The notes under the pieces: model-generated
What the model was told of the DNA's origin: nothing
The model's input: the letters and a program-made list of their open reading frames with translations, nothing else
The model's database searches: none
From: Fimbriimonadaceae bacterium
GTDB lineage: Bacteria; Armatimonadota; Fimbriimonadia; Fimbriimonadales; Fimbriimonadaceae
Reading direction: 5' to 3'
Assembly (NCBI GenBank): GCA_023957775.1
Contig: JAMLGR010000001.1
Coordinates: forward strand, 186,001 to 250,000
DNA: 64,000 bases
Translations under genes and position numbers: made by a program
Part shown: positions 57,282 through 59,319 of the stretch, one piece after another
Numbering within the stretch: the first letter of the stretch is position 1
How the letters are laid out: each line of letters opens with the position of its first letter

Positions 57282-57869
57282 CTAGCTGGTGCCTGGGCGC
57301 CGATCCAACGGTTGCGTGGCGACCACGAGCGCGGCGCCGAACGCCTTGAAGAGGGCCTCGACGACGTGATGGTCGTTCTCGCCCGCGAGCTTCCGCACGT
57401 GGGCGCACAGCCCACCCTGCAGCACGATCCCCCGAAAGAACTCCCGGATGCTCTGCAGTCCGACGTCCGCCACGCGCTCCGTCTCGAAGGGCACGTCCCA
57501 AAAGAGCTGTCCGCGCGCACTGGTGTCCAGCGCGACCAGCACGAGGGCGTCGTCCTTCGCGACCGTCGCGCTGCCAATGCGGTTCACCGCTTCCCCGTCG
57601 GCGAGCGCTCCCTGGAGCGCCTCGCCCATCGCAATCCCCACCTCCTCGAAGGTGTGGTGCTCGTCGTCCGGCGCGCCCGTGTCCACCTGGACCCCCAAGT
57701 CGATCATCGCCTGGTAGGCCATCAGGGCCAACATGCGGTCGAAGAACGGCACGCCCGTTCCCAAATCGCGCTTCGTGCCGCCGTCGAGGTCGAGGACGAC
57801 GCGGACGCGCACGTTCGCGGCTTCCCTCTCCACTTCGGCGTACCGGATTCCGGGAGCGGTCTTGCTCAT
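57282..57869 (-). CDS. hisB: Imidazoleglycerol-phosphate dehydratase
   Basis: 195 aa. HisB signatures [52 protein letters not shown] near the end supplying metal-binding His and Glu residues. Catalyses the sixth step of histidine synthesis. ATG 57869 ([15 protein letters not shown]) follows TATAAG by 6 nt, with a G-rich heptamer array immediately upstream. No other his genes adjoin. Confidence 0.95.
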
Positions 57870-57875
57870 GGGGTT

Positions 57876-57881
57876 CTTATA
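57876..57881 (-). promoter_or_regulatory. -10 box TATAAG, leaderless-type, for hisB
   Basis: TATAAG on the minus strand, 6 nt before ATG 57869. The heptamer array begins 11 nt further upstream, so it occupies the -35 and upstream region. Confidence 0.5.
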
Positions 57882-57891
57882 CCTTGGGGGA

Positions 57892-57962
57892 CGGGAATCG
57901 GGAGTCGGGAGTCGGGAATCGGGGGGACGGGAATCGGGAGTCGGGAATCGGGAGTCGGGAGT
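57892..57962. repeat. G-rich heptanucleotide tandem repeat, CGGGAAT/CGGGAGT
   Basis: Nine 7-nt units in two blocks (four, then five) separated by CGGGGGGA, each CGGGAAT or CGGGAGT. GGG runs every four or seven bases on the plus strand make it a strong G-quadruplex candidate. Located directly upstream of the hisB -10 box. Confidence 0.9.
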
Positions 57963-58007
57963 CGGGGGGCGCATGGAATCGGGGGTGGCCGGCGGGGGGC
58001 GGAAATT

Positions 58008-58033
58008 GGGCCCCCTCGTTTCGGAGGAGGCCC
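58008..58033 (-). terminator. Terminator-like hairpin after the c-di-AMP aptamer
   Basis: 10-bp stem (one G-U pair) GGGCCTCCTC / GAGGGGGCCC with loop CGAAAC, followed by AATTTCC on the minus strand. About 150 nt beyond the aptamer and 140 nt before hisB; probable expression platform of the riboswitch. Confidence 0.5.
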
Positions 58034-58181
58034 TGCTCAACAGGAGGTGCTTTCGGATGCCGACCACCGCTGCGGGGCATGCGCCCCGGGCGTCGCCGTA
58101 CATCCTCGGCCACATTTGCGATGTCGCTCACGCCATCGTGGGCTGGGAGTTCCAGCCTGTTGAGAGACTCATGGCGACTCT

Positions 58182-58303
58182 CGCTACGTCTACGGGGTTA
58201 GCTGACGGGTTCGGGCCAAGAGTTACCCTAGCGGCCTTTCGGAAAGGCCCCATTCACCCCATGTTTCGGGTCCCCCGCTTCCCTCGAAAGGGAATTAGAC
58301 GGT
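58182..58303 (-). promoter_or_regulatory. Cyclic di-AMP riboswitch (ydaO/yuaA aptamer)
   Basis: Minus strand. All conserved parts are present in order: P1 CGTCTA pairing with TAGACG (58296-58301 with 58187-58192), a TTCCCT/AGGGAA stem, GCGGGGGACCC, GGGGTGAAT, a GGCCTTTCC/GGAAAGGCC type stem, TAGGGTAACTCTTGG, and CCGAACCCGTCAGCTAACCCCG. This is the RF00379 pattern. A TACTCT about 25 nt upstream could be its promoter. No obvious target gene other than hisB. Confidence 0.92.
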
Positions 58304-58418
58304 TGGCTTCTCAGCCAGGAGTTAGAGTACCAGCAAACAAGGATTGTTCCACGGGAAATCGCATGAAAAGTGCGAGGGGCGTCGGGAATCCCGGGAAGAA
58401 GCCCGCCCCCCTTCCCGG

Positions 58419-58424
58419 TATCAT
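58419..58424 (+). promoter_or_regulatory. -10 box TATCAT, leaderless-type, for sucD
   Basis: TATCAT, 7 nt, ATG 58432. Confidence 0.5.
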
Positions 58425-58431
58425 CGGGGCG

Positions 58432-59319
58432 ATGTCCATTCTCGTCGACAAGAACACGCGCGTCGTCGTGGCCGGCATGACGGGCCGCGAAGGCGCCTTC
58501 CACACCGAACAGATGATCTCCTACGGCACGCAAGTCGTCGCCGGGGTGACGCCTGGCAAGGGTGGAACCGAGTTTCTTGGGCGCCCCGTGTTCGATACCG
58601 TCGAAGAGGCCGTTCGGCAGACCGGTGCCGACGCGGGCCTCATCTTTGTGCCTGCGCCGTATGCCGCGGACTCGGTCCTCGAATGCGAGGCGGCCGGCCT
58701 GCCCTTCGTCTCCTTGATCACCGAGGGGATCCCCGTCCAAGACATGCTCCGCGTCGTGAATCGCCTCAAGGCCAACGGCACGTGCCGCCTGCTTGGCGGC
58801 AACTGCGCCGGCATCATCACGCCGGGCGAGTGCAAGATGGGCATCATGCCCGGGCACATCTTCGCCCAGGGACCCGTCGGGCTCGTCAGCCGGAGCGGAA
58901 CCTTGACCTACGAAATCGTGTGGGAGCTGACCCGCGCCGGTCTTGGACAGACGACCTGCGTTGGGATCGGCGGCGATCCGCTCCCCGGCCTGCGCTTCGT
59001 CGACATCCTCGAGCTGTTCGAAGCCGATCCCAAGACCGAGGCCGTCGTGATGGTCGGCGAGATCGGCGGCACCGACGAGGAAGCGGGAGCAGAGTTCATC
59101 AAGGGCATGAGCAAACCCGTCGTAGCGTTCATCAGCGGCAGGACGGCCCCTCCAGGCAAGCGCATGGGCCACGCTGGCGCGATCGTGACCGGCAACAAGG
59201 GCACCGCCGAATCCAAAGTCAACGCCCTCAACGCCGCAGGCGCGGCCGTGGCCGAGTCCACCAACGAAATCGCCCAGCTCGTCAAGGACGCCTTGGGAAC
59301 GGGAGCCGCCTCGCGGTAA
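58432..59319 (+). CDS. sucD: Succinate-CoA ligase alpha subunit
   Basis: 295 aa. Rossmann CoA-binding domain ([33 protein letters not shown]), [21 protein letters not shown], and active-site His in [11 protein letters not shown]. Interconverts succinyl-CoA and succinate with nucleotide phosphorylation. sucC is not next to it, which is unusual. Followed 5 nt later by the cysteine desulfurase gene. Confidence 0.95.

Follow-up and report, generated by a model that had tools for sequence, protein, structure and literature searches.

The minus strand of the window, a 64,000-nt stretch of a Fimbriimonadaceae genome, probably encodes at ~58317–58004 a free-standing c-di-AMP-sensing RNA of ~315 nt that would act in trans by pairing with Shine-Dalgarno (SD) sequences. 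Judging from sequence comparison, we give this reading a probability of roughly two in three (0.68). The comparison with relatives shows a two-domain unit that is present as a single copy, is independent of the genes downstream of it and is conserved in Fimbriimonadaceae and a sister family. It consists of a c-di-AMP aptamer, a structured domain without a conserved open reading frame (ORF), the motif ACCUCCU and a strong hairpin. The original prediction had described the aptamer as a riboswitch with no recognizable target other than hisB, and had suggested an orphan left after gene loss, control of hisB by read-through, or action as a small RNA. The comparative evidence supports the last of these.

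The aptamer (58311–58173, minus strand) matches the ydaO/yuaA model RF00379 over its full length (model positions 1–134) with 84.5 bits (E = 3.1e-18), and its P1 helix is paired, as had been claimed. With a gathering score of 38 bits for the family, it is a member of RF00379 by sequence and structure, and the window contains no other Rfam match. Aptamers of this type were found in 43 of 61 relatives and in 74 of the 85 genomes of the family. The host genome encodes a diadenylate cyclase (PF02457, E = 1.1e-40) and Hfq. The predicted 5' end of the RNA is a 4-bp hairpin designated as P0 (58316–58305, GGCU-GAGA-AGCC) with a GNRA tetraloop, and many relatives have the counterpart GGCT-GCAA-AGCC. 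A strict scan for a sigma-70 promoter in front of the aptamer found none. A putative promoter is located at 58350–58324, consisting of a –35-like GGAAC (58350–58346), a 16-nt spacer and the extended –10 element TGGTACTCT (58332–58324). The sequence TGNTANNNT was present upstream of 16 of the 44 units and of none (0/44) at a control distance. The element GGAAC, unusual for a –35, recurs in front of many units as well as at some promoters of hisB; a –35 specific to the clade or an ECF-type sigma factor could account for this.

Behind the aptamer, ~120 nt of the window without a recognizable gene lead to the motif, and the conserved 3' effector domain extends over 58143–58004. No ORF in this domain keeps its start and stop across the group. 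RNAalifold applied to all 20 diverged linkers gave no consensus structure, the alignment being too poor, and alignments of subgroups worked where the global one had not. The alignment A1, comprising sequences of 11 relatives and five helices, had 87% standard pairs. In A1, two-sided changes occurred in 13 cells (mean of 5.9 in shuffled alignments), all in helices 1, 3, and 4, and the covariation score was 0.246 compared with 0.156 for shuffled alignments. None of 500 shuffles reached the score or the two-sided count, and slid controls were all lower. This covariation supports the structure but is not proof of it, as related sequences can beat such shuffles without structure. Helix 5 (UCAGCA-CCUCC-UGUUGA), which places CCUCC in a 5-nt loop, was paired in 92% of cells with one-sided changes only. 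A covariance model (R1) built from the 11 relatives gave 23 matches over 85 whole genomes, 22 of which lay at an aptamer or immediately after one. Twelve matches were in genomes outside the training set (E = 2e-11 to 0.006), and 11 of them were at an aptamer; the sole exception (G005) was the weakest and a marginal one, with E = 0.006. In the window, R1 matched 58143–58004 with 17.9 bits (E = 0.0022 over 123 kb) and the second-best match had 7.4 bits. No other Rfam family was found for the domain, the best match being at chance level (14.7 bits against a gathering score of 56.8).

Outside the aptamer, conservation is highest in GCACCTCCTGTTGAG (58050–58036, minus strand), which is located immediately before the strong hairpin. 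Like the extended –10 element, it was absent from the earlier account. The heptamer ACCUCCU within it (58048–58042) is identical to the anti-SD tail at the 3' end of 16S rRNA and complementary to AGGAGGU; the 16S 3' tail of the host contains CACCTCCT. We fetched and oriented 115 aptamer loci and counted heptamers in 114. ACCTCCT was the commonest heptamer within 270 nt behind the aptamers, occurring in 44 of 114 loci compared with 2 of 114 in the upstream control and a mean of 1.1 of 114 for the other 104 heptamers with the same composition. None of 17 aptamers from Armatimonadota that do not belong to the order was followed by it, and the form in the sister family is ACACCTCCTGAC. Exactly one copy was present in 42 of 71 genomes and two copies in one. 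Among the 30 genomes with several aptamers, the motif stood behind exactly one in 24, and in the single-copy carriers (42 of the 43 carrying genomes) it is missing from the other c-di-AMP switches.

CCUCC is the loop of a hairpin in members of the main clade. The window hairpin AGCA-CCUCC-UGUU (58051–58039) presents the anti-SD core on a 4-bp stem; the stem has 5–7 bp in many relatives and is missing in others, including the sister family. By eye, the pairing that closes the loop is kept with different letters in two genomes (AUACA/UGUAU in G031 and CAACA/UGUUG in G260). A strong hairpin begins no more than 16 nt behind ACCTCCT in all 44 loci, and shuffled sequences were as good in 6 of 880 cases. 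In the window this GC-rich hairpin is GGGCCTCCTC-CGAAAC-GAGGGGGCCC (58033–58008), with 10 pairs including G-U and a weak U-tract. The terminator-like hairpin of the original prediction is present; because just AAUUUCC follows, it goes uncalled in a strict scan for terminators. The U-tract in relatives is usually better. Two further loci (L241 in G108 and L245 in G184) have an R1-positive 3' domain with the degenerate motif GCACTTTTCC, a long-range hairpin before a T-run and hisB as the next gene. The anti-SD function was possibly lost in both.

The identity of ACCUCCU with the 16S tail points to SD pairing. The motif might instead bind a protein or the ribosome, or serve as an internal structural element of a free-standing RNA, for example by pairing with GGGGUG of the aptamer, and not act on mRNAs at all. 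We consider this rather unlikely. Its C-rich and near-invariant sequence, the different stem contexts among subgroups and the ability of CACCUC to pair with GGGGUG would be compatible with such a role, but the match to the 16S tail favors SD pairing. Moreover, the aptamer of the sister family reads GGGGCGAA (GGGGCG) while CACCTCC is unchanged, so that the pairing with GGGGUG is not kept. Pairing of the motif with CTCAACAGG at ~58164, for which a 9-nt complement was noticed by eye in the window, was not seen in relatives and was rejected.

The gene next to the RNA in the window is hisB (57869–57282, minus strand), encoding imidazoleglycerol-phosphate dehydratase (PF00475, E = 7.5e-44). The heptamer array and the separate hisB promoter that had been described are both found: an array of ~7-nt units (CCCGATT/CCCGACT, ~57963–57886) lies between the RNA and hisB, outside the RNA, and the –10 box TATAAG (57881–57876) is located 6 nt ahead of the ATG, as in leaderless genes. 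The spacers of the relatives inspected do not carry the array. In an ordinary cis riboswitch, c-di-AMP would set termination at 58033–58008 and hence read-through into hisB-hisH-hisA. Such a reading draws on a terminator-like hairpin lying between aptamer and gene, and on ~20 genomes of the family in which hisB is on the same strand 215–900 nt behind the aptamer. We regard it as unlikely, and the read-through proposal did not hold up. A GTATAA-like box is present a few nucleotides before the hisB ATG in most relatives, whether or not the gene is linked to the unit, and by its sequence the hisB promoter is leaderless and independent of the unit. Nor does the motif sequester an SD sequence of hisB, because the gene has none, and an antiterminator does not need a fixed ACCUCCU beside hairpins of varying sequence.

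Synteny also argues against control in cis. The divergent sucD-like gene on the other side of the unit (58432–59319, plus strand; relatives 58–81% identical) served as a control. Fourteen of the ~20 genomes with hisB behind the aptamer also have sucD in front; hisB is kept without sucD in 6 genomes, and sucD without hisB in ~10. As a divergent sucD cannot be a cis target and is kept as often as hisB, the latter is retained no better than a neighbor that the RNA could not control. The unit also persists without hisB or facing a convergent gene, namely upp (G243, G268, and G270), a PilZ-like gene (G269) or a cytochrome-like gene (G022). Other next genes are a same-direction sucD (G245), dnaK (G034) and a sugar-kinase-like gene (G013), and in the sister family a peptidyl-prolyl isomerase or DinB gene; apart from sucD, these varied downstream genes were named from their translations, not by family search. 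A canonical cis riboswitch has a conserved same-strand downstream gene under its control, whereas here the genes vary or converge. Hence, hisB is probably a neighbor and not the target of the RNA. The host genome has a second hisB-like gene (G000:C1:317074–317616, minus strand; L355), which is 34% identical to hisB of the window. Beyond hisB, two adjacent genes (57206–56922 and 56925–56647, minus strand) encode small proteins of 94 and 92 aa with a common N-terminal membrane-like segment (MIPIVAIL..HQ..MAEI), within which they are 41–45% identical. Their homologs occur near rpoB/hisB in relatives, and no Pfam family was above the cut-off for either protein.

An orphan switch left by the loss of its gene is very improbable. 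The window has no gene between aptamer and hairpin, as such a relic would, but none is conserved at that place in any relative examined. A lost or overlooked protein gene, or a small protein encoded in the linker, was ruled out by the lack of a conserved ORF. The non-coding stretch is itself conserved; the 3' domain, motif and hairpin extend across many genera, unlike a relic. That the motif is in fact the plus-strand SD sequence of a gene or of an N-terminal extension in the sucD frame (AGGAGGTGCTTTCGGATG at 58042–58059) is suggested by a perfect SD sequence and an open frame in the window, but can practically be dismissed, as an ATG lies 4–13 nt behind AGGAGGT in no more than 7 of the 44 loci, sucD is absent from that side of many units, and the orientation of the motif is fixed to the aptamer and not to sucD. 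The open frame in question (57733–59319, plus strand; 528 aa) is in the sucD frame and runs antisense through the whole RNA; its start is mimicked by AGGAGGTGCTTTCGGATG, and it is not conserved.

For the trans-acting RNA that we favor, we infer transcription, the direction of the c-di-AMP effect, the SD pairing and the targets as follows. The RNA (58317–58004, minus strand) would be transcribed from its own promoter and end at its own 3' hairpin. Its 5' half would sense c-di-AMP via the aptamer, and its 3' half would be a structured effector ending in ACCUCCU. This motif, which the main clade presents in the loop of a hairpin, would pair in trans with the SD regions of mRNAs and block their translation, and c-di-AMP would set the amount of RNA, or of exposed seed, that is available. 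In five of seven members of the sister family, an early terminator-like hairpin with a U-run occupies a constant position, ~50 nt downstream of P1 and ahead of the motif. The five loci of sister family f5 (L056, L066, L069, L081, and L105) have two terminator-like hairpins: besides the early one there is a late one, which follows ACCTCCT. Neither the window nor most of its family showed a consistent terminator between aptamer and effector, so the ligand would there have to act via folding, exposure or stability.

A pattern search for an extended single target found none, and none of the four additional exact CAACAGGAGGT sites in the genome has the position of a ribosome-binding site. The ordinary c-di-AMP switches of the clade often carry a GGAGGAGGU ribosome-binding site, (GGA)GGAGGU, just behind P1, and the mRNAs concerned are therefore candidate targets, though this is a guess. 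The second c-di-AMP switch of the host is of the ordinary type (L032, G000:C2:120391–120535, minus strand) and has GGAGGAGGTCGTGGATG directly behind P1. It precedes a ~100-aa protein of unknown function, and such a protein is found behind aptamers in 10 genomes. A broader reading, which we offer tentatively and hold to be less probable than not by a good measure, is that the unit is an ancestral single-copy c-di-AMP-sensing mimic of the 16S tail in Fimbriimonadales. It might regulate many SD-led mRNAs at once, possibly including those of the clade's own cis c-di-AMP switches, with their perfectly complementary GGAGGAGGU sites; leaderless mRNAs, that of hisB among them, would escape.

Several known RNAs resemble parts of the unit. 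The full-length, high-scoring aptamer is that of ydaO/yuaA riboswitches (RF00379), whereas the unit has no consistently controlled gene and adds a conserved domain with an anti-SD motif. Rli55/EutX of Listeria and Enterococcus is a small RNA controlled by a B12 riboswitch; in Rli55, the ligand sets how much effector RNA is made, and the EutV protein is sequestered via an ANTAR element (PMC8079631). As in the unit, an aptamer heads a conserved non-coding RNA domain that has a 3' end of its own (a predicted one in the unit), and the sister family shares with Rli55 a terminator between the aptamer and effector parts. The ligand differs, however, and the window unit has an anti-SD motif. Since it has no ligand-controlled terminator between the two parts, we describe it as working like Rli55/EutX and do not file it as a member. 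The SAM riboswitches SreA and SreB of Listeria act in trans, the terminated RNA pairing with another mRNA, and SreA also controls its downstream operon in cis (PMC8079631); the unit, unlike SreA, has no conserved cis gene. The NfeR1/alpha-r14 “cuckoo” small RNAs of rhizobia have a conserved anti-SD motif in unpaired hairpin regions and block ribosome-binding sites in trans (PMC10746234). The anti-SD motif of the unit is conserved too; it lies in a loop in the main clade, whereas its stem is weak or missing in other members. NfeR1 lacks an aptamer and carries CCUCCUCCC three times (PMC10746234), whereas the unit has one CCUCC element and a c-di-AMP aptamer in place of three CCUCCUCCC hairpins; it works like the alpha-r14/cuckoo RNAs and is not a member. 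The likeliest action of the unit would be SD pairing in trans, which has been shown for NfeR1 (PMC10746234), here subject to a 5' domain that senses a ligand, like that of Rli55 (PMC8079631). In the open-licence literature, which leaves subscription journals outside, we found no paper on a c-di-AMP riboswitch joined to a trans-acting small RNA, nor one on riboswitches of Fimbriimonas.

A riboswitch is generally assumed to act on the gene that follows it. The few known examples at the head of a trans-acting RNA have, to our knowledge, B12 or SAM as their ligand. If the reading proposed here is true, a second messenger would join this short list of ligands, and a nucleotide signal would act on the translation of many genes without a protein. 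A riboswitch that seems to have no target need not be a relic, and the adjoining gene, hisB in many genera, can mislead as a clue to the target. Should the global reading also be true, Fimbriimonadales would possess a second-messenger-gated regulator of translation made of RNA only.
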